DNA of 64,000 nucleotides from Filobasidium wieringae (lineage: Eukaryota > Basidiomycota > Tremellomycetes > Filobasidiales > Filobasidiaceae): contig BCIV01000005.1 in NCBI GenBank assembly GCA_001600055.1, positions 426,611 to 490,610 of the forward strand, in the 5' to 3' direction. The notes under the pieces are model-generated. The model ran no database searches. It was not told where the DNA came from and saw only the letters and a list, made by a program, of their open reading frames with translations. Of this stretch, positions 835 through 23,927 are shown in pieces (position 1 is the first letter of the stretch; each line of letters starts with the position of its first letter). The translations under genes and the position numbers were made by a program.

Positions 835-2725
835 ATGTCGGCAACAGGCTTCAAGATCACCTCGATAGAACCCCGTTACTCGAAGCTCTACGTGCACACC
901 ACAAGGCGTATCTACCTGCAAAACCTGATCAACCTGCTCCATGCGAGTCTACTCAAGAGGGACGCTTCCAGAGCCTACAGAGCTTGGGCTATTTTGGTAA
1001 GCGGACCGGGGGCGAGCGGAGTTGTGATATAGCTAAAGCGATCGGTTGTGGACAGATGAGATGTCCGGAAATCGATTTCAAGACCACATGGAAATGGGCT
1101 CTTCCGGTGTTAGACCTCGTCTCCTCTTGTGCTAGTTCCTTTTCCTCGTCTCAAGAGTATCAACCGCAAACGCAAACGCAAACGCAGACTCGAATGCAGA
1201 CCACGTTCAATATCGAAACGATCAGAAGAAGGATCGACGACCAAACGAAAGAGACCTATCTGCGTAAAATGCTTGTCGCAGTGAACCAATGGCAGGTCCG
1301 TCCCTCCGTCTCCACGCACGATCCCACTCCCCTATAACTCACCTCCTCCCACCCGCCCACCGACCCCGACTATGACAGAAATCAGAAATCCTGACGACCC
1401 TGATCATCCATCTCATCTCCCAATCCCAACCCGAACAAGCGTTGGACGAACTGGAATTGTACCTGCCTACTTTCCCGTTCGCCCTGAGCGCCATCATTCA
1501 TACCTACGCCGGACTCTTGAGCTTTTACCTGAGTCAACCTAGGGAGACGAGGTTGGGTGAACAACGGACACAGGGGACACAGGGGACGCAGGGGACACGG
1601 GGAACGGGTTGGGAGGAAAGTCAATGGGCCACCCAGGCCGTCCCCCCTCCCTCCTCCCCCTCGACTCTGGACGAAGAACTCGGTCATCTGAACCTCCAAA
1701 CCCGACCCGCCAAGAACCCTTTTTCGAAACACGATCTAGGGAAACTCAAACAGGCCCTGGTGTATTTCCGGAAAGCGGTGGAGCTCGAGATGGAGGAGGA
1801 GAAACGGACGGACGATCGGTTGGTCCTCCGAGCGAGGGGGATCGGGGGGGACGTCGAGGTGATGAGGTTGAGGAGGGTGGTAGGTAAGAGCGTCGCCAGG
1901 AGTTTCGTCAAGGAGGTAAGCTCTGTACACGTGGTCCGGTCCGGGTCCGGGTTCGGGATCGAAGTTGACCCCGAGGTTGGATAGATCAAATCGATGTTGG
2001 TTGAAGTCGAGGGGAAGGAAGGTGGGGATATGGATTCCTCCGATGTCGAGAGGTTCCCTTTGAGCGAGGAGGAGGAGGAGGAGGAGGAAGACGTTTCGGA
2101 TGATCCCGTCAGCGAGCAGGACGAGGACGACGACGAGGACCATGACGAGGATGAGATGGAGGACGGACGGGAAAGAGGACATACGATCCCCGCTTCCAGC
2201 CGCGCGAGTACCCCGCCGATCCCGACCCCACGACAAACACCCAGACCCAGACCTACACCTAGACCGAGCTCGACGAGAACGCCCCGCAAGTCGGGCAAAA
2301 AGAGTTCCACCTTGCAACCCCCCACCCCCACCCCCACCCCCACCCCTGGTCGACCAAGCTCGACCCGATCCACCCGTAATCCTCAACCGTTGTACCAACT
2401 CTCCTCTCACCCCCTAGACGACCACCCGGACGCACAAGACGAGGAGGCCCCGTTGGGACAGAGGAGCAGACGAGAATCGACCACCGAGACCAGCGAGGAT
2501 GGGGCCGGGAGGACGGATTACCTGCAGATCAGGACGAACGGTGGGAGAGGGGTCAAGCGGAAGAAATCCCGGATGAGACGGACGGGGGATGGACACGAGG
2601 GGGAGACGTTCAAGGACGGGCTTGAAGTGCGGGTCGAACGTGGGGTGAGCGGGTTGCAGGGCGAACCGCGGGGACGGGATGATGAGGATGGGAAGAGCGA
2701 TTATAGTGATCTTTCTATCGGTTGA
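835..2725 (+). CDS. RRN11: RNA polymerase I-specific initiation factor Rrn11 family
   Basis: Four exons: 835-996, 1056-1295, 1379-1915 and 1985-2725, all in phase (559 aa). Rrn11 is a TATA-binding-protein-associated subunit of the RNA polymerase I core factor that directs rDNA transcription in the nucleolus. The family signature is clear. Residues 20-56 give HTTRRIYLQNLINLLHASLL then KRDASRAYRAWAIL and, across the first intron, MRCPEIDF..TWKWALPVL. A helical repeat-like part follows, with DELELYLPTFPF and HTYAGLLSFYL. An in-frame low-complexity insert (TQGTQGTQGT) and a second helical segment come next. The last 250 residues are disordered: a Glu run, Pro/Thr-rich stretches and basic clusters. 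That tail is longer than I expect for the family, so the gene end may vary between species. Confidence 0.85.
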
Positions 2726-3224
2726 AACGCGGGAAGGGGGAGGGGGAACTGTATCCACGGTAGCTTTATATAATTGGTTGTAATTGTCCGATCGTCGATG
2801 GGTTTGTGGTCGGTCCGGGTTCTCGTCTTGGCAGCGTCAGTGAGTCGCCTTACAGCGTTGTAGGAAGGCAAATTGTGAGATTGGCGACGGCCCGGCGTCA
2901 GCGGACCAACAGGCTCGAGATGGTCTCTGGTACTAGCTAAGGATTCGGGAACCCCCCCATGTACCATGTACAAGTTCTTCGGGAACGAAAAATACGTCGA
3001 GCAGCGGAAGGAGCGTTTCAGGGGAAAGCTGTGAAGGACTTGATAACCTGAAGGACACGCAGCGAAAAGGATGTTCTCCCATTCTTCGTCATCGTGGAAT
3101 GATCAACGTGAGGATGTGAGTGCTTCGGTGCACAATGGCCAAGAAGGACATTGTGACCTGGAAGTTCGCTGGGTTTCTGGGGGTGAGGTGACTTTCATAT
3201 TATGTCTTCTGCAAGTCCAGCCTT
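2726..3224. other. 3' region with a relic-like homologous stretch
   Basis: No confident gene. Around 3120-3190 the minus strand resembles the second exon of the related locus at 46293-46355 (both read ...LAIV after a CCAG-type acceptor). The AT-hook gene at 3225-3569 may therefore once have continued here. Confidence 0.35.
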
Positions 3225-6340: not shown

Positions 6341-6661
6341 GTAGTCTGTACCTGAGGTGGTTATCCGGAGATGTTTGTCGCTGGACTTGTAGATCGTCGC
6401 TATCGATTCTCACAGTGTCTGGAGAACACGACATCAGGGAAAGGAAAGTGTAAGTGGTAGCATGTGAGCGTCTATTTGGTGATTGTGTTGTGGGTGAGAA
6501 GTGCCAGAGTATCGGCAACGCAATGAGTCGGTTCTATATCGCACCGACCCAAATCATGGTCGCCAACATCTACACCGATCATGTCGCCATCCTCTCATCT
6601 TTATGTCAATATGTCGTCGCATACTATCTAGACAACCTGATCCTTGCGGCCCGTCTAGAGC
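6341..6661. other. Intergenic, left flank of the mobile element
   Basis: Holds one diverged copy of the tRNA-linked 78-bp repeat (listed separately) and otherwise no feature. It ends at the left inverted repeat of the element. Confidence 0.4.
6448..6512 (+). repeat. Solitary diverged copy of the 78-bp tRNA-Pro-linked repeat
   Basis: Reads gtgtaagtggtagcatgtga, gcgtctatttggtgattgtg, then ttgtgggtgagaagtgccag and agtat. The same order, with few changes, makes up the tandem array at 18.97-19.24 kb. This copy lacks the gcggcctggttg start of the unit and lies about 150 bp left of the mobile element. Confidence 0.75.
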
Positions 6662-6683
6662 CGTGAGCTGGGTCGCGGTCTAA
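6662..6683 (+). repeat. Left terminal inverted repeat
   Basis: cgtgagctgggtcgcggtct followed by aa. It matches the complement of 13364-13385 at 21 of 22 positions. The one difference is C here against T there, in a TCG context. Confidence 0.8.
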
Positions 6684-6812
6684 ACAAAAATGGATTTTGC
6701 ATTTGAATATGAAATCGCAATGACTGTTACATGACCTAAACGTGTAAATTGTATCAATATCATCTCCCCATACACATAGATACCAACATAGTTGCCAATT
6801 CATTACATCACC

Positions 6813-9262
6813 ATGGATACACCATTACCAGAGAACTTCTGTGATTCTTGTGGCTCTGGCCCTTTCTTTCAGCCAGTGGAGATGTGCGGAAGGTGCAATT
6901 ACCTGGAAATGGTTGGCAGGTCAGCGCAGACGGATGGGGTTGCAGCAGTAAGTTATACAGGTCAAGAAGCACTACAAAGCAGCAGTTTCATTTGACGCTT
7001 GTTAGCAATTTACCTTATGTATGCGGGAGGGTGCTATATGCAAGGCAGGTTTGAAGAAATGTGTGGATTGTGCTAAACCTTCAGCGCTTCTCAGCAACAG
7101 TAAATGCGTCCTAAATTCTCACAAACGGGGTTGATACATATGGTTGTATCATAGATACAGGACAAGATGCTGGTGCAACTTACAGCGGCTACTGCAATGA
7201 AGCCAATGCAATCCGTCTCTGGAGGAATGAAGAGGTCCTTTCATCTCAAGGCCAGCAGGCAATTAGAGGAGCTCAGGCAACACGGCAATCCAAATCCTCA
7301 TTGACTGGTTCAAGCTTTTCAAGTGGACCAAATATGGAGATCAGGTTTCAGTATACGGAGAGAAAAGCCTATCTTCAAAAGGTTAACAAGGGCGATGTTC
7401 ATTTTTTGAGTGTCACGAGGGAAACACTCATGAGCAAAATTCTGGAGATGATGGTTTCCATAGTTCAAGAGCGGTACTGGGATAAGCCACAGCTGAATCG
7501 GGATGCTGGAATCATCAATTTGTCAGTAATACTCGGGGCTGATTGTTTCCAAGTAGTAACTGTTGCGTTTTTTAAGGGAAGATGTCGACACGGGAAGATC
7601 TGTTGCAACTCTCTACTTTTCAAACAAGATTATCATTGAACCTGAGCAGATGAAGCTGGATGTCCGCTCTCTTCATTCATGGGCTAAGACAAGCCACCTT
7701 CTCAGCGGAAATGACAATTAACCAAATGCAAACACTTTAGGTCTCATCATAGAAATCAGAGCCGATCTTGTGGAAAGCTTAGAAACACCTGCATACCATT
7801 CCGACTTAGCCATCTTAAAAACCGCAGCTAAATCTGCCATCCAAGTTGGCAAAACGCCTCATGGTGGTGCACCTCCAAAACACTATGTCTCAAGCCTACC
7901 AATGCCATCCATCCTCTGGGCCCCTTCAAATATCCCCGTCTGGCTGAAGACGGCTACACCTATCACAGTTTCGGAACATGTGCCCACATTTAGCATGGAA
8001 CATGCTTGCGTCAATTGGGACGAGACTGTCAAGAAAAGTTACCTCTGGGTTGACCATTCTCGACTTGGAGAGGGTGAATCCAAGATCTGTCATGCAGTAA
8101 GATAGCTCTCAATGTAGCGTCTTGTATGGGCTGACATACATTTTTTCCCGGTCAGGCAAGGTATGCTGATGCGAGGCATCCTGGATCTTTACCGGATGGG
8201 TTTTCTGGCTCTGCTCCGACTGAGCAGTATGTTGCAAAAGTTCTCAGGCCCACTGTGGCGGCCCAAGAAGACTGTGACCTATTTGAGATCATGCAAGCAG
8301 AAGCAGAAGCGTACATCTGGGGTGGCATCTATGCCGATGAATTTCGAAAAGCAGTCAAAGAAAGTCCAGCTGCATCTTGAAAGGTAATTCGTAAGTGATT
8401 CACAAACATGCTTTAGCGTCAAAAGACCTCACTAGACATTTCCAAAATAGCCGTCCTTTTTGCAGATATCAAGCTCGTGATTGAAGCTGTTGCGGAAGAG
8501 GTCAATGGTTATTCTGATGATGAGGACTATGAGCCATCGCTTCTTCTCCCTGGGGACAACACTGGGAAGAGGGTTTGGATGCTGGAACAGTTTCAGACAG
8601 GCGAACCTCTTCGGTTTTCTGGAACACTTGAGGCAGGCGTTGGAAGGAGTCGTGCTGAACTGACAGTTGCTGCCTTTGCACATTTGGCTTACGAGGCCAG
8701 CCTTGAAACAATGGTTCTTTCGGATCTTGAAGGTTGGATCACGTCGGCTGGTATTGTATTGTTTGATCCTATGGTGCACTCGTAAGTCAAATGTTTCCTC
8801 ATTTCCTCACCTGATTAATTGGTTGACCGAGCTAGATCTTATAGCGTGAAGGGTGGTTTGTCCATCGGCGACCTTGGCCAAGCAGGCATTGATGCTTTTA
8901 TTAGTGGACATCAGTGTAACACCATCTGCAACGACCTCGGATTAAAGACACTCAAGATCTCATCGACGGGTGATGATCTGGAGGGTCTCATCACTCAAGC
9001 TCTCCAGCCAATACCCGAGGAGGAGGAGGAGGTTCAAGTCCAACCTGAGAGGCCTCATAAAAAGGCTCAAACACAGAAGGCTGTCAGATCAACGAAAGGG
9101 AAGCGTACAACACCTGTTCGATCCCCCTCTCCCCTTCCTAATCCATCCTTGGCTGTTGATACCCCTGCGGCAGAATTGGTACCATCTTCAAGTGCCTTGC
9201 CACTCATTCAACGCTTTACAAGTAGTGGTCGAGCAGTTGGCAATCCCGTGTATAAATGCTAA
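6813..9262 (+). pseudogene. Zinc-finger alpha-kinase carried by the element (one in-frame stop)
   Basis: Eight exons: 6813-6947, 7030-7099, 7155-7521, 7577-7716, 7741-8096, 8156-8390, 8466-8781 and 8836-9262 (about 681 codons). Alpha-kinases are atypical Ser/Thr kinases of the eEF2-kinase/MHCK family. The domain is unmistakable: DLFEIMQAEAEAY, RFSGTLEAGVG, LTVAAFAHLAYEAS, VLSDLEGW, VLFDPMVHS, LSIGDLGQAGIDAF, and the zinc-binding end GHQCNTICNDLGL. The N-terminus has four Cys pairs or singles (CDSC, CGRC, C..., CVDC) like a zinc finger. The tail is Glu- and Lys-rich. Two defects are visible. TGA at 8378-8380 sits between PAAS and KVIHIKLVIE, where an Arg codon CGA is the simplest ancestor. The intron after 7716 starts AT, not GT. 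Without repair or readthrough the product would lack most of the kinase domain. Confidence 0.85.
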
Positions 9263-9269
9263 GATCGAT

Positions 9270-10902
9270 TCATATGTGCTTGTTTAGGGTTTGCACCATA
9301 CATCGGAAGACTAACCAAACATTTGTCAATGAGATCGAGTTGACAGGAGGATTGAGGTATTGTGTTGCAGCCACATATATCCCTTGTGCCCAGTCTTCTT
9401 CCTCTTGCGTAAGAAAACGGAGCAATCCCGGGTGGTTCTTCTCGATTTCATCTATCCACTTGTCTACTTGTATTAAAGCATGTTCATCGAGCTTTAAGAG
9501 ACAATCTTGCCCTTCACTATTGTATATGGTATTAGGTGACATTCCCGAGGGCAGTGCAGTATGGTGTTGTTTGCGGATGCGTTGACAGTCGGCCATGTGC
9601 ATGTATGCAGCAAGCTCAGAGTCCATGAGCGGTGACATCAAATAAAGATATATGATCCTTGTTACGCAAGAGTTCGATCAGATTGCCTTGAAGATATTGG
9701 TGGAAGGAAGAGAAGCCTCACCGGTGTTGCTCATTACCTGGGACATAGTCGCCTGTGGTCACTGCATTTCGGGTACTCATCACAAATTTGCTATGAAACT
9801 TGTCCACAAGAGGTCCCCATCCTCGTTCGACCGTGATGTTCTTAGTAGATGGCAAGAACCGGTGTGGCTCAGGAGCTGCGGCTAGACCAAGTTCTCGAAT
9901 CAACTCTTGCAAGTCGTTCTCAACCAAGTCACTGTAAATATTGGTAAGCTATTTGCAGCTCACAGTAAATCAACTAAGCTTACCGTAAGGTTGACTGATA
10001 AGCAAAAATGTCCATAACCTTGTTACCATGATCGCTAGTAATATGCAACGGAACACCTGATGTAGATGATTGGTTAACAATTCCAATGTCGAATATAGAA
10101 TCACATACCCTTTAGTTCTTGGATCAATGTTAAGAACAGATAAGATGTTGTGGTGTTGGTCCGGTTGCTGGGTACTGCTTGTAAACACAGCCATTTCCGA
10201 GAGAACTTGTCTCGCATCCCATATATTGGGAATCCCAGTGCAGAAAGTTTGTCATGTCCATCTATGGATAGCTGTTCATTTGGTCCAAATGAATGTATGA
10301 CGGAAGAATGTCCTTTCCTGTTAGAGGCTGAGCGAGCCCTTTGATTGAATCCTTCGGGGAAATGCGTCTTCATGATGTCCCGTACTACATTGCTAAAGTG
10401 CTCCCGTGTCAATAACCTTTACGGTTGATCTTGGAAAAATACTTACCCTCGGATATGGATGCCTTTTTGTCCTAAAGCCATGGCAATCCATGTGGCAGAG
10501 TCCCAATGTTGCGGATCGTGTTGGTTGATATGAGTTACGACAACTGGCTCAGCTTGAAAAAATGTAAAGCCAGCTTTCTTGCTTCCATGAATCCTATAAA
10601 CGTTCATATATTTATTCAAGGTTGTACGGCTGTAAAGGATGTGGTTATGAGCTGAGTTGTAGTATTCATGGTCATTCGGCTTACCCGACCTCTATGCCAT
10701 AGTCTGATCTCAACCTTTTCAGCAGTGTTTCTCGATTGACAATATTCTCTGTGTTCACGAGATGTTGTAGTGCATTCTCAATGTTGTCCTTCACAACTAT
10801 TCGTCTGGTGTAAGGACAGTACCTCATGGCTATGTTGGGGGACCTACCTGTTCGTCCATATTGGGTTTTCCCTTCCGGGTTGCGGTTGAAAGATGCTTGC
10901 AT
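9270..10902 (-). CDS. Integrase-core (DDE) transposase-like protein
   Basis: Six exons on the minus strand: 10902-10685, 10629-10447, 10392-10109, 10056-9984, 9931-9722 and 9657-9270. They give 451 aa with every junction in phase and no stop. The protein belongs to a family of integrase-core proteins that I recall as common in basidiomycete genomes. Catalytic motifs in order are FGPNEQLSIDGHDKL (first D), HITSDHGNKV (second D) and NITVERGWGPLVDKF (E). The N-terminal 130 residues look like a helix-turn-helix DNA-binding part (NRETLLKRLRSDYG). The C-terminus has the RKQHHTALPSG motif typical of the family. An upstream in-frame extension exists but has no ATG, so I start at 10902. It is probably the enzyme that moves the element. 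Confidence 0.85.
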
Positions 10903-11076
10903 CACTCGGCTACGATTGTTGAGCAAGACTACCTCTGTGATGTTGCTGGGGACCTTATCAGCCAGGCAACAGCACAATATAAGTCCAGGATGTGCTTATG
11001 TTCAATAGGGAAGCCACTGTTGTTCAGCGGTGAAAGGGATATTAATCATTATAATACATAAAACTATTCATATTTT

Positions 11077-12364
11077 TTAGGCTTTTTTAAAGACGTCCTC
11101 ATGAGAAAACAAAACAATCGCCTTTCTATTTGACCCCTCAAATGGGGTCACAGCGTGCTTAAGGAGAGCTGAATGGAAAAGGGTGAAATGACCAGGACGG
11201 TATTCCAACGTCAGTTGGAAGTCATCAGTTCCTACCACCAGGTTGCCCCCTTCGTATGAACCCAGGTTAGTCATAGCCACATAGCCTTCTCGGTCATCAG
11301 CATTATCGCGATGAGGTAGAACTCAAAGGTTATGAAGCACAGCCATTCCTAAGGACGTAGTCTTTTTGGTACTCCGGATTGTACGCATAGAGCGAAAACG
11401 CTCAGCCAGTGTATCTAGTTTAGTCTTATACCTATATAACTATCAAATCAGTATCAAGTCTGAAGCAGGAGAGAAGGAACACAACTTACCACTTCTTCCG
11501 TTTAGGCTCAAGGACCTCAAATATGTTTGCGGCAGCTTCTTGTAAAGGGATCATATCGTCAAGGAATTGTTCAACTTTTTCATTGCGGTAGATGTTGTTA
11601 TTGCCATGGCAGTGAACCGAAACATGTGGGTCTTCATGTGCACGTCCCTGTGAATGCCAGAATGCAAAATGCCAAACTCCTGTGTGTTCCTTTGTGTGAT
11701 GCTGACAGGTGCCCTCATAGTCGTGATGACGTCTATCACCTTCACTTGGTCCGGGCAAACGCCCAGACCATCCAGCTCTCAATTTTTCAACCGAGTCATC
11801 TAGATGCTCTGATAGGATTGTACAAATTAGTTGTCCATACCGATGACCCCATCAGCCAATAGACTTACTAAGAAAACGCTCTCTGTCGTTGCTGTGTGGC
11901 CACCCTTCTACAAGGACAGTATCAAGCTTATAGAGCAGGATTTTCCCGTCTGTTGTTTGTATGATGGTGTTGCCTTTAATTACGGGTTCTGATGCAAGTT
12001 GCTCGTCCCACTCTTTGACAGTTTGGTTCCACTTCTCAGCTTCAGCCGTAGTATACTTATGCTGTGCCTTGTGTTTGTGCTTCGACTTAGCTTCATCAAG
12101 AAGTGTCGCATAGCTTATCGAAAGAGTTATAACCTTTGAGGAAGACAGTGCTTGACGGACAACAGTGTCCCAATCAGATAGCTTGCCATCATCCCAGTCA
12201 TAAGGTCCTTGGGGTGTTACAGACGGCTCCTCCTCGAGGTGATGTGTTGGTGTGTATCCTTGTGTTATTTTATCTGTACCGGAGTTGCCATCAGCTATTA
12301 CTATCCAGCTTCTAATAACCAAAGATGACTCACTAAGAATTGTATCCCGGGTAGGTGCCTCCAT
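11077..12364 (-). pseudogene. TET/JBP-type 2-oxoglutarate/Fe(II) dioxygenase (one in-frame stop)
   Basis: Exons 12364-11869, 11808-11490 and 11431-11077 join in phase (389 codons from the first ATG; an upstream exon is possible because the frame stays open to 12409 at an AG acceptor). The family oxidises 5-methylcytosine or thymine in DNA. The C-terminal catalytic core reads LPHRDNADDREGY (Fe ligands H and D), GSYEGGNLVVG, YRPGHFTLFHS, LLKHAVTPF (distal H) and NRKAIVLF (2-oxoglutarate Arg). The middle exon is unusually rich in His and Trp (CQHHTKEHTGVWHFAFWHSQ). TGA at 11323-11325 lies five codons before the HRD motif, between HNL and VLPH. The intact second copy has Arg just before its equivalent LPHVD, so CGA to TGA is likely. 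As it stands the product would lose the active site. Confidence 0.8.
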
Positions 12365-12409
12365 TCCTGACCATAGGATGTTGGGTACTGCAGTTGTATC
12401 CTCGGGCAC

Positions 12410-13363
12410 TAGATAGAATCAAGCTTGTCAGAAGTATTGTATCGGGCATGACGGACTTTTACGGGAGATAATCAGTACGTGTAGGTCAAAATCGGATCAT
12501 AGAAACTGAACCACTCACCGGAAACTCTCGGAAATGGTACCGTTGGAAAGCCCTTGAAAAACTGAGCCAGAAAGAGCCTAAGTTGAAAGGATTTGACCAA
12601 GTATTGCTAAGTCAAAAAGCGAAAATTCAGTGTCCGGCTACCATTTTCCCACCTAAATATTTTTTTGGGGAAATCATATCTCAAGAATGGCTTACTGTAT
12701 CTTCAATCTGTTTTGATATTCCGATAGAGGCACTCCTGTAGGGTACTATTTGATGTTCTGAACAAAAAAAGGGCAGAGTGTAAGTACTTATAGCAAAATC
12801 CGATAAAAAAAAGCGATTTTGAGGCTTACTGTCTTTTCCTAGTTCCACTTTGCTTAATTTAAATGCGGCAATGATGAGGCCTATACCGCTGGAAATCCCT
12901 TTGAAAACTGAGTAAGATAGACTATAAGATCAAAAGTTTTGGATCAGTATTGGCCTTGTAATCAAAATCCGATAAAAAAAAGCGATTTTGAGGCTTACTG
13001 TCTGTTCCTAGTTCCACTTTGCTTAATTTAAATGCGGCAATGATGAGGCCTATACCGCTGGAAATCCCTTGAAAAGCTGAGTAAGATAGGCTATAAGATC
13101 AAGAAAGCGGAGTTAGTATTGACCCAGATATAGAGATAGAAGAAATAAGCGAAAATCGCGTTTTTTAGGCTTACTATGTCTGTTTCCCTTCTTATAAGAT
13201 CGCTTTAAAGAGACAGGGCAGATGGTAGGACCTTCAGGAGGCTGTGTATTGAGTTTAAGATGTCTAGAGTAGTTGATTGTCTAGTAATGAATGATATTGT
13301 AAGGTAATAGTAGTGGTAGTACAAGGGGCAAAATGGAATTGTGCGTGCATATTCATTATTCAG
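12410..13363. other. Non-coding right arm of the element
   Basis: About 950 bp, very AT-rich, with no open frame of note. It has runs of A (ataaaaaaaagcgattttga) and tandem copies of a 169-bp unit. It lies between the start of the dioxygenase and the right inverted repeat, and could hold its promoter and transposase-binding sites. Confidence 0.6.
12794..13131. repeat. 169-bp tandem repeat, two good copies
   Basis: Copies begin at 12794 and 12963 with caaaatccgataaaaaaaag and share long identical stretches such as tagttccactttgcttaatt and ggcaatgatgaggcctatac. A weaker, older copy precedes them near 12530-12790 (taccgttggaaagcccttga against taccgctggaaatccctttga). Further partial homology continues to about 13180. 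Subterminal repeats are common transposase-binding regions. Confidence 0.85.
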
Positions 13364-13385
13364 TTAGACCGCAACCCAGCTCACG
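13364..13385 (-). repeat. Right terminal inverted repeat
   Basis: The complement reads cgtgagctgggttgcggtct then aa, pairing with the left repeat at 21 of 22 positions. Confidence 0.8.
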
Positions 13386-13734
13386 ACCGTACCCGTCCAA
13401 CTCAATCTCCCCGCCGAAGGGACGTTCCGTAGTTGGGTCCTGTCTTCTGGCTTGTGTAGTATCTCATTGCATGGTCCTTCTGTAGGTTATTGGAGCTAGG
13501 TTGTTGGAGCGGCAGCTTGTTTCAATTGCCTGGTGCACACATATCCCAATCGCTATGAAGCCCAGAAGCAAGTTCTCGGTAACGGCAACACTAATAATCG
13601 GTGTTGCCGTTATCGTCTCAAGTCACGTGTTGTAGGTTTGGATCTGTAGGGGTCCTGACCGTACAAGTCCTGACCATACGACTCTGCCAGTCTAGACACT
13701 CCGAATAGACGCCTAGATCTAGATCCTCCAGACT
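13386..13734. other. Intergenic with a perfect 12-bp hairpin
   Basis: No gene. taacggcaacac (13580-13591) is followed, after a 9-nt loop, by gtgttgccgtta (13601-13612), a perfect inverted repeat. It could be a small element remnant or a transcript hairpin. Confidence 0.6.
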
Positions 13735-14472
13735 ATGATCTTGATTCGAGCCATGAAGACCCAATTGGTCCTGCCGACTGCTCATACTCTCTGCAATCCG
13801 GCACTAAGCTTAGCCTTCGCTGCCAGAGTGAATTCCCTGCCAACCAAAGTATGGCGGGAGGCTGCAATGTTGTTACTTGCAAAGGGTGCTAAAGCATACA
13901 TTGAAGCTAGCTATAATCTATCCGCTTTACATGGGGTGTTGAAACAAGCCAAGGCCATCACGCTCAAGGACCTTCAAACAAGGGATCCACAAACATTGCT
14001 ACTCATCAAGGAATACAACTCCAAGTACGAGAGGAACAGAATGATCCTCTTGAGATCCGCTATTGAACAGCTGTGGGGAGCTGGTTGGTCTAGCACGCTC
14101 AAGTATAGGCAAGAACCTTCCAGTCGCCTGCTACTTAAATGTATATTGCACATTGCAGAAGCGTTTCCAGATATTCAACATACTTTACTCTTACTGGAAT
14201 CTATCAAGAGCGCCAGGATGAAGTCTGGTGGTCTGGTGCACAATTGCTCGGATAGTTTCTTCCTGATCGATTTTAAAAAAATGACCGATCGATCGACAAA
14301 CGATGAGAGAAGCGGCAAGAGTATGACTTGTCGAGGGCAGCGTGCCTGTTACGGATACGCTCACGGACATACAACACGGACATCACGTTCGGTACGCTCG
14401 TCACGTGACCCCGGAATTTGCGGGCAGAGTGTCATCCTTATGACGAGCCTCTCCCCCTCTCATTCTCTGTAA
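13735..14472 (+). CDS. Unknown ORF in the repeat-rich region
   Basis: Open frame of 245 codons from ATG 13735, with no recognised domain. The first 180 residues look protein-like and helical (VWREAAMLLLAKGAKAYIEA, LLLIKEYNSKYERNRMILL, LLLKCILHIAEAFPDIQHTL). The last 60 are low-complexity Ser/Arg/Thr and may be read past a missed intron. It lies between the composite element and the second TET/JBP gene, so it may be part of another transposon. Real but unplaced, or a remnant. Confidence 0.4.
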   Translation: MILIRAMKTQLVLPTAHTLCNPALSLAFAARVNSLPTKVWREAAMLLLAKGAKAYIEASYNLSALHGVLKQAKAITLKDLQTRDPQTLLLIKEYNSKYERNRMILLRSAIEQLWGAGWSSTLKYRQEPSSRLLLKCILHIAEAFPDIQHTLLLLESIKSARMKSGGLVHNCSDSFFLIDFKKMTDRSTNDERSGKSMTCRGQRACYGYAHGHTTRTSRSVRSSRDPGICGQSVILMTSLSPSHSL

Positions 14473-15534
14473 CATAGTTGTAGTAGGTCTTCATCTGTTA
14501 TCACCCTTATCTGCTAGAACACAGCTTGGTACAAGTCCCAGTAACTCTGCAAAGGAACTCCCGGCGAGCCTCCCCTAACAGTGCCGTTGATTCAGTACAG
14601 GGTTCCAAGCAGCCCAAGCGGCCGAGGTGAGTATTCTTTGTGCAGAGATTAGAGTCCTTCAAGCATATCAAATAACAATCACGTATACCATAGAAAGGAA
14701 CCTTCAGGAGGTTGCACTGGCAGTCAGTCGAACAACGACAAGGGGAACAGTGGGAGCGACGCACGAGGGGATCGAGCAGCAGGTGATCGAGCAGCAGGGG
14801 ATCGAGCAGAGGCGACGGCAGGCCTCAACAAGGGGTCTAGACAGCAGCCGTTGTGGCCACATTTGGACGAAAATTGCAAGACTTGTGTTGGTTATACTAT
14901 GCACACTACCGATTTGAACCCAATGGCCAACATCCTGCGAGAGCATCTTTCACAAGCTACCTTTATCACCTTGAGCTTCTCTCTGCTGGATGTTATAGGC
15001 TCCTTGTTGAGCACGTACTAAGGTCATATACACGTCATTAGGACCTCTGTTATCACGCGGTTTTCACGGATGGGAGAACTGCCCGTCGGGCAATACAATT
15101 TTACAGGTCATTCATCGACCTTAGGTAGTACAATTGTAGTAGAGTTCTCCATCCGTTATACATCCTCATAGTGTACACCATACACTATACATACAAGTCC
15201 CTGGTACCAGTCCCCTCGGACACACGTCAACGACGTGGTCCTAACAGGTTTGAGGTGGATCGACTTGTTCGACGGAATAGGAGATGGTGTTTCGTGTTGT
15301 ACGAGCAATCCGCGGTACGAGCGGATTCAGTCGACTTTCCCGGAGATCCGGTTGAAACGGGGTCGAACCGAAACGGGGTGGTAGTTTGGTTGGCAGAGCG
15401 AGATTCTACTTGAGCGATGTCTTGATGAAACAATTGTAACACCGCCGTCAACTTCCACACACACCGCAACCTCAACCACCGCAACCTCGGCCAGCTTATC
15501 AATATCGATCGATCAGACCACACATGACCAGGCT
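14473..15534. other. Repeat-rich gap without a clear gene
   Basis: About 1 kb. It contains a direct repeat gatcgagcagcaggtgatcg / agcagcaggggatcgagcag near 14765-14815, an inverted repeat at 15066-15156, and a short palindrome tagtgtacaccatacacta near 15171. The frame of the next gene is open upstream of 15535 but has no ATG, so its first exon may lie here. Confidence 0.5.
15066..15156. repeat. Inverted repeat with 14-15 bp arms
   Basis: acggatgggagaact (15066-15080) and agttctccatccgt (15143-15156) are inverted copies differing by one inserted G. The spacer contains gcccgtcgggc, a further small palindrome, and two acaatt-type motifs. Confidence 0.65.
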
Positions 15535-17507
15535 GTGCGAGTTTGGGAGCTGCTTAAGCCACACAATTGTAGACTGGACCTGGAGACATGTCCTGCAGTT
15601 CTGGCCACTCTGCGTGGTTCGTCTGCGCTTCCTTTGAGCGTGTTGAGAGTTGCATGTGTCGACAACACAGACAACGGCAAGAGCGTTCGTCATTTATGGA
15701 AAGAGCTACAATGCAAGCTGGGCATGGATCACGCTGTTCTTAAAGAGACAATTCCCTGGCTCTACGACTACATCGAGAAGGATTGGTTGAGTGCGGTTCA
15801 AAGAAGAAAGGACCGGAGATGGCATATTATCGCACAACGGTGGGGTTACGATTGGTACAGGGACCTGGGTGGTGACAAGGATGCATTACCGGGTGTCACC
15901 TTACTCACACCAATTCTCACACTGTCCAAACTCAAACCGGACTATGAAACAGCCAAGGCCAAGATTCAAGGTCACATGGAGAGATCACGACAGACAGGCT
16001 TCCCGAGAACACGAGATTTCACAAGGATTGTCGCTGCCATCAGAGGATCATCCGGCTCTCCACTTCCCACCCCTGCAATCTCCATTGTGCTTGGGAAAAC
16101 CGATAGCGACAGTGATGGCGATGGCGATGGCAATAGTCAGGGCCAGCAGAGACAGGGAGGTCGTGATAAACGTAGGGCCGAGGACAACAATCGAGCAGAA
16201 GACGACTCAGACTCACGACTAAACAAGGAGCGGTGTCTTGCGGATTTGCGTCAAAGCAATCTCACTCCACTATGGCGTAGCAAGTCCTCTGTGTCTATGA
16301 ATGTGGAGAAGCCTCTGGTCGACTGGGAGTTCCCGGTTTCGATTCACAGCGGGCCGTTGTCACGTTTCTGTAGGGCGATACTATCGTTACTAAGCCGACC
16401 CAATGCTAGTTTCCCGATACAAGCATTGATGGATATGATCGACCGAGCGCCTTTTGGCCTGTCAAAAGTCAAGGAGTCGCTCAAGCGATGTTATACATCC
16501 GGTAATTACCACGTCGTCCCCCTCCCAATCATGTTCCAAACGATATCAGCCAAAAAGAGGTCGCTTGGTGTTGACAAAGACAAGGAAAAGTATCAAGAAC
16601 GCATCAGAAGATGGGATGAGCAGTGCAAGCGCTTGTCGGCCCATAAGGGTAATGTCATTGTCAAGGCGGCATGTGGTACTTCAGTACTTTACAAGATGGA
16701 GGGAATATTGCAGGAGCGCACCACCACCAATGTCGAGCCCACCACCAATGTTGAGCCAACCGCCACAGACATTGTAGAACGGTTCCGTCGATTGTGGATA
16801 GGGACAAGAGGGTCGTTGCCTCAACCGGCCAAACAGAATTCTCGTTATCCGGATGGCCCTGATGAAGGAGACGTGGCAGTCGAGGAACAGGTGGACACCA
16901 GGACGAGCGGTCTCTTTTCACTTTGCTTGGTGGTATCCTTATTCAACAACGCCCAAGCTCAGCCTGCATCTGGTTTCGAGTTTGGAACACTCGACCGCGG
17001 CGTTCACCCTTCTCCACACGCTTGCCCCTACCCTTCGAAAGATCTCGCAGGTATACAGCATCCTGGAACCTGTCTCACACGACCTCTACTGCAACACCTC
17101 CCAGAAACATATCGAAAAGTTCAAGGTCCCAGCGATATTGAAATATGGTGAAGCCTCGCACGCCTTTATGGGAACGGCGTTGGTGTACAACATCAGGTAC
17201 GTCTAGACTGCAAAGTGAGGTTTGCCCATCTGATACTTGTCCACGCAGGACACTCCCCCATGTAGACAGTAACGACCCAAAAGACGGGTGGACAGCCATG
17301 TTCAATACTGGATATTTTGAAGGAGGAGACTTGATCGCGGGGACGACCGATCACCAGATTCGGATCCCTTACAAACCTGGGGATCTCATTCTATTCAAGG
17401 CCAGAGCACTCATACACGGTGTGATGCCGTTCACAGGAGAACGTCAGTGTTTGGTGTTGTTTGTAAAACCGACTGCTTCTCAAGTCAATCAATATGCTAA
17501 GGATTGA
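15535..17507 (+). CDS. Second TET/JBP-type 2-oxoglutarate/Fe(II) dioxygenase, intact core
   Basis: Three exons: 15535-16890, 16958-17196 and 17249-17507, joined in phase (617 codons). The ATG is not settled. The frame is open before 15535 but offers no ATG, and the first internal Met is at 15724, so an upstream exon is likely. The C-terminal 150 residues are the catalytic domain: FMGTALVYNIR then TLPHVDSNDPKDGW (Fe ligands H and D), GYFEGGDLIAG, IPYKPGDLILF, ALIHGVMPF (distal H) and ERQCLVLF (2-oxoglutarate Arg). The N-terminal 450 residues have no recognised domain; they include an Asp/Gly/Gln-rich linker (DSDSDGDGDGNSQGQQRQG). Expected activity is oxidation of 5-methylcytosine in DNA. No inactivating stop is visible. 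Confidence 0.8.
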
Positions 17508-21805: not shown

Positions 21806-23927
21806 TTACAATCCAGACAACCAATTCTGGAAAGCTTTTCCATCACTGGGTCTACCCAGGAATTGCTCCAAAAGTTCACCGCCATCTCTGCTACCCCCCG
21901 CCTTGAGCATCTCCTTGTAAGCTTTACAGAGCTTCTTGTCGAAAATCCCATCAGGCAAATCCTGCAAGGCCGCAAATAGGTCTTGTGCAACAACCCAAGA
22001 GTGGACATAGCAGTAGTACTACACATCTGGTTCAGCTATTTCCTTCATCAACATGAAAGAGTTGGGTGACTCACTTTTGGTCCATACCCTGCAACAACCA
22101 GATGCACAAAAGACACTTGAGGGTGTGTTCCTTCCACATGTTGATGGTTGTCTGTTTTGTCTGCAACCCTCTTCCAGATAGGATCAGTTCCCTCCTTCAC
22201 TAATTGACCAGGATCCAACTGATAATACTTCAAAGACCTTTGATGTGAGTTCATCAACATCCAGTCTGACAGCGACAGTGAATTCCAACTCACGCCTCAG
22301 CATTAAACAACTGATACCTGATTTCCATTCCTCTTCCAAACACCTGCGCCTTCCTCAACTTCCTGACCAACTCTTCAGGGATGACCACCCCATCATCATC
22401 CCTTGCAAACCTCTCAAGCACATTCATCTGTAACAAGTGCTGTTCCATAAAAGTCGAAGGAGCCTCAACCAGATCCTGTTCCACACTGGTCCCATTGAAC
22501 CTTGCATACTTGTTCTGGCTTGCAAGAAGGTCATGAAGGGCATGTCCATATTCATGGTAGATGGTTTCAAGTTCTGAGAAATTCATGAGGGTTTGGGCAG
22601 GTGGGATGTTCCCCACTAGTACCACTTCACCCAATTTGTGGCCTGGATGTGACTGAATGACGCTTGAAACATAGGCTACTGAGCTCTTGTTGGATCGGAG
22701 GTAGAGCTGTCGAGGTTCATATATCAGTCAAGGGGTTGATTCTAGTCGGTGGGTTTCACTCACATCAGTGTAAAGCCTTCCTAAAAGTGTTTCATCCTCC
22801 CTATCATACACATCATAGACCTTCACCGTCTCTGCCCAAACTGCAATCCCAGGTCTAGCTTCAAACCTGATCCCAAACAATTCTTCTAGGAGGACAGGAA
22901 TTGCCGGCAAGACATTTTCCATCCTCAAGTAAGGCCTGATCTGAGTCACGTCAAAGCCTCCTAGTTCTTGTTGAGATAGTTTCTTCTTAGCCTGGTGACC
23001 TTGCCAAGGCCGCAACTCAGTGGTACCGTATGCCTGAGCCAATGCCATCTTCTCCTTGACAGACTGTTCGTGAACAAGGTCGAGGGTGTTGGTGACGAAA
23101 TCCTGCACCCCTGATACTCCTTTCAAGATGAGCCCCTTGTCACAGAGGTAATGCGCGGCATCCTTGTATCCCAACAATCTGGCCTCTTGATGGCTCAACG
23201 ACAGGATCTGCTTCAAGACAGGTTCGTTGATCGGCCAAGCCACATTATCCCGCTCAATGTAAGCCTTCTTCCTTGTGTCGTCGTTGATGGCAAAGATTCT
23301 GATCATATTGTTATCGGCGATCGAAGTGGTCAGGGTGATCTTCCCATCTTGATCCGGAGGATGATTGTCTAGAAAGTCTCGAGGAACGCCCTCCAATTGT
23401 TCGACGGTAGCTTGCCATTTGCGCTCCCCATCATTGATGTTCCTCCGAAATTCCGTCCTCAAACTGTTCAACTGGGTTCTTAGAGCGGACAGTTCGTGCC
23501 TCTTCTCTTCGGGTAAACGTACCCCTGACCTCTTGACATCCTGCTGACAATGCTCGATGAAGCGTCTATCGAGGCTGTCGAATGCAGGATCTTCAGCAGG
23601 TATCTGGCCGACAAGACGTCCTAGAGGAACACTAAGGTTCATCTGATTCGCCAAACCATCCCAAAGACTCTTCGCAGTTGTGCCCTCGTCTCTCATCTCC
23701 TGGTCCGGATGAAGCGAAACGAACAAGCTGGCTATCTGACCTTGGTCGACCACACTCGTCTGTAAAAGCTCGAATTGTCTTCCGAAAGTGAACAAGGTAG
23801 GAGCCTGATTGAACCCCTCGAGATCCTTTAGAGCTTGCTGAGCGTCGTCGTACGCCTGCTTCCATTGCTGCTTGTAGTTCGTGACGGTCATACCGCCGTC
23901 GAATGTAAAGTCCATGGAGGTTGTCAT
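21806..23927 (-). CDS. M3 family zinc metallopeptidase (thimet oligopeptidase-like)
   Basis: Four exons: 23927-22764, 22706-22294, 22237-22075 and 22018-21806 (650 aa). The zinc motif is LETIYHEYGHALHDLL (HExxH), with the third ligand in EAPSTFMEQHL. LYTDLYLRSNK and the C-terminal SRDGGELLEQFLGRPSDGKA are typical of M3 peptidases such as thimet oligopeptidase, saccharolysin and bacterial oligopeptidase A. These enzymes cut short peptides in the cytosol or mitochondria. No obvious mitochondrial presequence (MTTSMDFTFDGG), so a cytosolic place is more likely. The last three exons are less GC-rich than the first. The ~290 bp upstream of the start shows no other gene. Confidence 0.9.

Follow-up and report, generated by a model that had tools for sequence, protein, structure and literature searches.

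Positions 6656 to 13391 of a 64,000-nucleotide stretch of the Filobasidium wieringae genome (contig BCIV01000005.1, positions 426,611 to 490,610; the whole stretch is referred to here as the window) are one mobile unit. It is a complete insertion of 6736 bp in which genes for an alpha-kinase (PF02816, 1.3e-20), a DDE transposase with an integrase core (PF24764, 2e-10) and a TET/JBP dioxygenase (PF12851, 3.1e-8) lie between terminal inverted repeats (TIRs), an arrangement that an original prediction had read from the DNA and that the profile matches bear out. The features of the insertion are:

6650..6655, left target-site duplication, CCCGTC, the same as 13392-13397
6656..13391, complete transposon insertion, recognised by its inverted ends and 6-bp duplication; a second element with similar ends lies at C6:642494-650394
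6656..6683 (+), left TIR on the kinase side, starting TAGAG, 24/28 identical to the right one
6813..9262 (+), alpha-kinase gene, modelled with 7 exons, with paired N-terminal cysteines (PF02816, 1.3e-20; GT-AG gene model)
9270..10902 (-), DDE transposase gene, 7 exons, 434 amino acids, no internal stop, with catalytic D161, D220 and E271 (GT-AG gene model; PF24764, 2e-10)
11077..12408 (-), TET/JBP gene, its conserved part modelled in 3 exons; the ATG of the first model is at 12364 and the true start is uncertain (PF12851, 3.1e-8)
12794..13102 (+), subterminal pair of direct repeats (12794-12933 and 12963-13102) that are 96% alike (self-match of the element; related stretch on C4, 478179-478689)
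13364..13391 (-), right TIR on the TET side, ending CCGTA, 24/28 identical to the left one; relatives at C4:474979 and C18:603110
13392..13397, right target-site duplication, CCCGTC, the same as 6650-6655

Inverted repeats of 22 bp had been predicted at 6662 and 13385. These repeats are real and not due to chance (the window gives two matches, whereas 100 shuffles average 0.00), and a looser 40-nt match of 78% runs inwards from 6662. However, when the ends were compared with a second pair on contig C6, each true border proved to be 6 bases outside the predicted one, with TAGAGCCGTGAG... starting at 6656 and ...CTCACGACCGTA ending at 13391. The TIRs of the window element are thus 28 bp long, identical at 24 of 28 positions, and bordered on both sides by the perfect 6-bp target duplication CCCGTC.

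The second complete copy, C6:642494-650394, was found in the 19.76-Mb genome (33 contigs), the search space for all genome-wide results given here. Its ends are likewise identical at 24 of 28 positions, with CTAGGG duplicated on both sides, and both complete copies have TAGAG...CCGTA termini. Repeat positions 10 and 11 differ between the two elements, and within each element the two ends agree there. The kinase and transposase genes are present in both complete copies and are convergent, tail to tail, in each: the kinase is on the plus and the transposase on the minus strand in the window, where their stop codons are 7 bp apart, and the two are jointly reversed on C6. The recurrence of closely similar ends around the same pair of genes upholds the prediction of a single mobile unit. 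A genome-wide search for end-like sites with up to 3 mismatches, a limit at which more diverged ends may be missed, returned six sites, and the reversed control pattern none. Outside the two elements these are right ends at C4:474979, in a remnant split by other elements, and at C18:603110, at the contig end. The C4 site was rejected as a third full copy on account of its right end being split by nested insertions and Copia-like remains, and no kinase, transposase or TET match was found in the 20 kb examined there. The labels Copia-like, Gypsy-type and solo LTR (long terminal repeat) were assigned by eye from reading frames and ends.

The transposase and the alpha-kinase

The transposase introns are 51-64 nt long and all GT-AG, and the spliced model from the window matches PF24764 (rva_4, integrase core) at 2e-10, with the D, D and E positions invariant in 5 aligned sequences. 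The mobile partner is an integrase-core (rve-like) enzyme, as had been predicted, and not a Kyakuja-Dileera-Zisupton (KDZ) transposase; an assignment to KDZ was rejected on both the duplication length (6 bp) and the transposase family (rva_4). An apparent solo LTR with TG..CA ends, 627 bp long and sharing 97% identity with C19:409498-410123, breaks the C6 gene. The closest named relative is a protein of Filobasidium floriforme (P0001), 65% identical to the C6 copy. P0001 scores 7.3e-5 with the IS481 model and 0.0055 with the IS3 model, both far below the model cut-offs, by which a possible kinship with IS3/IS481 is weakly supported. A 66-residue stretch at C5:307403 is 36% alike to the transposase.

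Three protein searches, whose reach is relatives sharing short exact words within a length range, returned 3, 1 and 1 proteins. No relative of the transposase, the kinase or the end motif was found in viral contigs (37 and 23 pattern matches failed tblastn, and the end motif had 0 matches), and none of the transposase in prokaryote genomes, where 30 pattern matches failed tblastn. The host genome also contains a second group of rva_4 integrase-core sequences with stronger Pfam matches, at C3:604901-605523 and at similar loci on C13 and C19; the genome-wide alpha-kinase search gave no match beside these loci.

That search gave two family matches, one inside each of the two elements: 1.3e-20 for the window kinase, queried with X at its in-frame stops, and 2e-23 for the C6 kinase, whose model has an uncertain start and no internal stop. 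Contig C26 holds a short kinase-like fragment with two runs of 16-17 residues, and C27 a DNA match only. A profile of three kinase relatives aligns with eEF2K (PDB 7shq, 1.9e-16), and in the signature D-(L/I)-(E/Q)-G, DP..H and H-x-C-N-x-x-C the catalytic and zinc-binding residues coincide with those of that enzyme; we take these residues to be the catalytic Asp and the zinc-binding H/H-x-C-x3-C. The element kinase thus resembles eEF2 kinase and myosin heavy chain kinase A in its alpha-kinase signature but differs from them in its N-terminus, which has paired cysteines and a conserved stretch. The cysteines are kept in both genome copies, and the Tremella relative P0004 lacks that part. Of the predicted zinc-finger kinase, the paired cysteines stand, whereas no Pfam model matches them. 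The nearest named relative, from Tremella mesenterica, is 32% identical over 68% of the query, among the best 8000 candidates scored.

The dioxygenase and CpG depletion

The window TET, spliced and with X at its stop, matches PF12851 at 33.5 bits, just below the cut-off of 34.9, and its relatives on C10, C24 and C8 exceed the cut-off. The H-x-D motif and the distal H and R are common to the element and its C8 and C24 paralogues; in this superfamily these positions bind iron and oxoglutarate. The PE-type feature H-x-E is absent from all three sequences, which read H-R-D in the element, H-Q-D in C8 and H-R-D in C24. Among solved structures, a profile comparison places CcTet nearest, though the match is weak (E-value only 0.025). 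The element TET is 40% identical to the C8 and 38% to the C24 paralogue, and 46% identical over 73 residues to the TET-like gene next to the element. In a six-sequence tree, in which one row is under half filled, it groups with C8 and C24/P0005, apart from the neighbour and C10, with the branching among element, C8 and C24 left open. A recent local capture from the neighbouring gene was rejected on both the identity and the tree.

That neighbour consists of TET-like pieces at 13735-17465 (+), right of the element: an N-terminal part lies within 13735-14472 (approximately 25% to P0005), and the TET domain is represented at approximately 16585-17465. On C24 (28002-38012) the TET-like gene is split by an apparent Gypsy-type LTR element, and its uninterrupted relative is the metagenome protein P0005.

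Both elements are depleted in CpG, with observed/expected ratios of 0.61 in the window and 0.51 on C6. A two-strand count of the C6 element without its nested LTR gives 0.45, and the LTR itself 1.03-1.05. The control of 198 other 1-kb windows, which excludes N-containing windows, both elements and C4 from 474000 on but includes some LTR elements and TET-like loci, averages 0.956 (standard deviation 0.131); 1% of these windows do not exceed the median of the window element, and 0.5% do not exceed the C6 median. Alongside the depletion in the elements, TpG and CpA are elevated. Every one of the four NCG contexts is reduced, with CCG the least affected; this differs from the TCG pattern quoted for Pucciniomycotina in the relevant passage of PMC12730594. 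No depletion is seen in three LTR-type elements whose open frames are long (1.07, 0.92 and 0.96). The ratio is 0.65 in the nested stretch on C4 and 0.89 and 0.75 at two rva_4 loci. Among TET-like loci it is 0.80 on C8, 0.93 on C24, 0.49 on C10 and 0.83 next to the element.

The depletion is consistent with the deamination that methylated CpG undergoes in old repeats generally. It points to past methylation of both elements, not to their protection by TET. A single match to the C5-cytosine methyltransferase family is present in the genome (C1:256144, E 4.6e-32). Together with the CpG depletion, this lends indirect support to the earlier proposal that the dioxygenase would act against host methylation. 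The transposon-borne enzymes have been suggested elsewhere to counter methylation-based silencing (PMC12730594, in the part used here), and a 2026 review, in its relevant section, describes transposon-encoded TET/JBP enzymes as not yet functionally characterised (PMC13297926).

Classification and proposed working

IS3EU elements are described as having TA..TA termini and usually 6-bp duplications (PMC10045372, in the sections relied on here). Both features are found in our element: the termini are TA..TA, and both complete copies are bordered by 6-bp duplications, CCCGTC and CTAGGG. In contrast, its gene order and full termini differ from those given for the TET-bearing IS3EU transposons of Kojima, and the element is therefore classed as an IS3EU variant. 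Taken as a whole, the observations are best explained by a class II cut-and-paste transposon of the IS3EU superfamily, an assignment in which we have high confidence. In such an element the transposase would pair and cut the TA...TA ends and insert them with a 6-bp stagger. The TET enzyme would oxidise 5-methylcytosine on the element DNA and thereby keep the genes of the element active where the host methylates repeats, and the alpha-kinase would be a second constant helper, phosphorylating some host or element protein. TET is a plausible anti-silencing factor; that it helps the element against host methylation we would put at roughly even chances.

Several observations weigh against a TET-equipped IS3EU transposon of this kind. 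The six-frame genome search for rva_4 has neither element among its matches, and only the spliced models match; with P0001, a sigma-54 model (0.0013) outscores the IS3 model, and no NCBIfam model matched the C6 transposase when the C6 sequence and P0001 were scanned. TET was found in only one of the two complete copies. Its slot on C6 (approximately 1100-3200 of the stretch with the C6 copy) is filled by unrelated reading frames, which match no family above the cut-off and have no further copy in the genome. What recurs at the second locus, with similar ends, is the kinase-transposase pair without TET. Moreover, TET-like genes are also present outside the elements, on C8 (open, 476 amino acids), C24 and C10 and just right of the window element. 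The element TET has an in-frame TGA at 11323-11325, separated by three codons from the H of its H-R-D motif; the stop takes a position occupied by Arg in the C24 paralogue and in P0005 and by Gln in C8. The window kinase has an in-frame TAA at 7719-7721 and a second stop at approximately 8378, near an uncertain exon end. The CpG depletion, too, is not special to the element, being stronger in a Copia-like remnant (0.12) and also seen at the C10 TET-like locus (0.49). The lowest ratio of the 198 control windows, 0.21, belongs to a host stretch at 22001-23000, which reads like an M3-type metallopeptidase gene, if we take its motif correctly, and which the methylation reading does not explain. 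Finally, one TGA, which an intron might explain, falls within the methyltransferase match, to which no subtype is assigned.

With in-frame stops in its kinase and its TET gene, the window copy has probably lost the function of both helpers. The stops at 11323-11325 and 7719-7721 had gone unremarked in the original prediction.

The absence of TET from one of two complete copies, its in-frame stop and the TET-like genes elsewhere in the genome, one of them just right of the element, would all suit an accidental passenger, drawn from the multi-copy TET-like family of the host, without a role in the life cycle of the element and decaying. We find this doubtful, given that the element TET retains its metal- and cofactor-binding positions, that its identities to C8, C24 and the neighbour (40%, 38% and 46%) indicate no recent local capture, and that TET is found in IS3EU of other fungi (PMC12730594, in the part used here). 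A good deal less probable is that the element has only a resemblance to IS3EU and should be placed in a different integrase-core superfamily, whether new or already described (Ginger or IS481EU, for example). Its top Pfam match is indeed rva_4, for which no link to IS3EU was found, its left terminus TAGAG departs from the TAYGG of TET-bearing IS3EU, and the tree of Kojima, as given in the relevant part of PMC10045372, does not separate IS481EU from IS3EU. However, the TA..TA termini with 6-bp duplications occur in both complete copies, and an alpha-kinase partner is present in all TET-bearing IS3EU families according to the passages used of PMC12730594. Least credible of all, to the point of being nearly dismissible, is that the three genes are chance neighbours left by nested or serial insertions. 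Such insertions do occur in this genome, as the C6 copy and the C4 remnant illustrate, but exact 6-bp duplications stand outside matching ends at two loci (a chance of approximately 1 in 4096 each), and the convergent kinase-transposase order is the same in both copies, with the stops 7 bp apart in the window.

Within the IS3EU assignment, the kinase is a more constant partner than TET here (two of two complete copies against one of two). We tentatively raise the idea, to which we give the lesser share of our belief, of a modular IS3EU lineage in which a constant transposase/alpha-kinase pair is accompanied by an exchangeable counter-silencing slot upstream of the transposase, holding TET in one copy and another protein on C6. 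TET would then have entered that slot independently of the rust elements, and the kinase would be an obligate second factor of transposition or stealth rather than cargo. In this species the idea of TET acting against methylation is directly testable: the genome is small, two complete copies and a single methyltransferase match were found in it, and CpG decay sets the elements apart from most of the other DNA examined.

Comparison with described systems

A basidiomycete transposon with a TET/JBP gene as cargo recalls the KDZ elements, with which this feature is shared. KDZ duplications, however, are 7 or 8 bp long (PMC12730594, in the part used here) against 6 bp here, and the transposase of the present element belongs to the integrase-core family. 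It agrees with the IS3EU/GingerRoot elements of PMC10045372, compared by their description in the relevant sections only, in the TA..TA ends, the 6-bp duplications and, tentatively, a DDE transposase weakly like IS481/IS3.

The nearest described counterparts are TET-bearing IS3EU transposons, which the sections of Kojima (2025, PMC12730594) relied on throughout this comparison report from seven Pucciniales species and, in one case, from Tuber indicum. The original prediction knew of no description of the three-gene unit; these three genes had in fact been reported together there. The Pucciniales elements have 6-bp duplications and TAYGG..CCRTA ends, and in all TET-bearing families TET lies between the transposase and the alpha-kinase, the latter two being in opposite orientation. 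Rusts have a greatly enlarged set of alpha-kinases, whereas Microbotryomycetes have none (PMC4469406, in its relevant part), a distribution that would fit a tie to IS3EU. The words 'Tremell' and 'Cryptococcus' do not occur in the main text of Kojima, supplements apart, and none of the open-licence PMC papers searched contains both 'IS3EU' and 'Tremellomycetes'. What we describe is a known protein trio in a different arrangement, probably in a fungal class without mention in that main text.

Like the Pucciniales elements, ours unites transposase, TET/JBP and alpha-kinase in one element, with opposed transposase and kinase genes, 6-bp duplications and ...CCRTA at one end. The right end, CCGTA, fits theirs, whereas the left terminus is TAGAG instead of TAYGG. 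The TIR core is 28 bp here and more than 30 bp there, a point of length that stays open given the looser 40-nt match. Unlike theirs, the TET gene lies on the outer side, upstream of the transposase, giving the order kinase, transposase, TET, and this difference in gene order suggests a separate assembly. The host, moreover, is not a rust but Filobasidium wieringae of the Tremellomycetes. Described so far in rusts and a single truffle, the union of transposase, TET and alpha-kinase is thereby extended to a tremellomycete.

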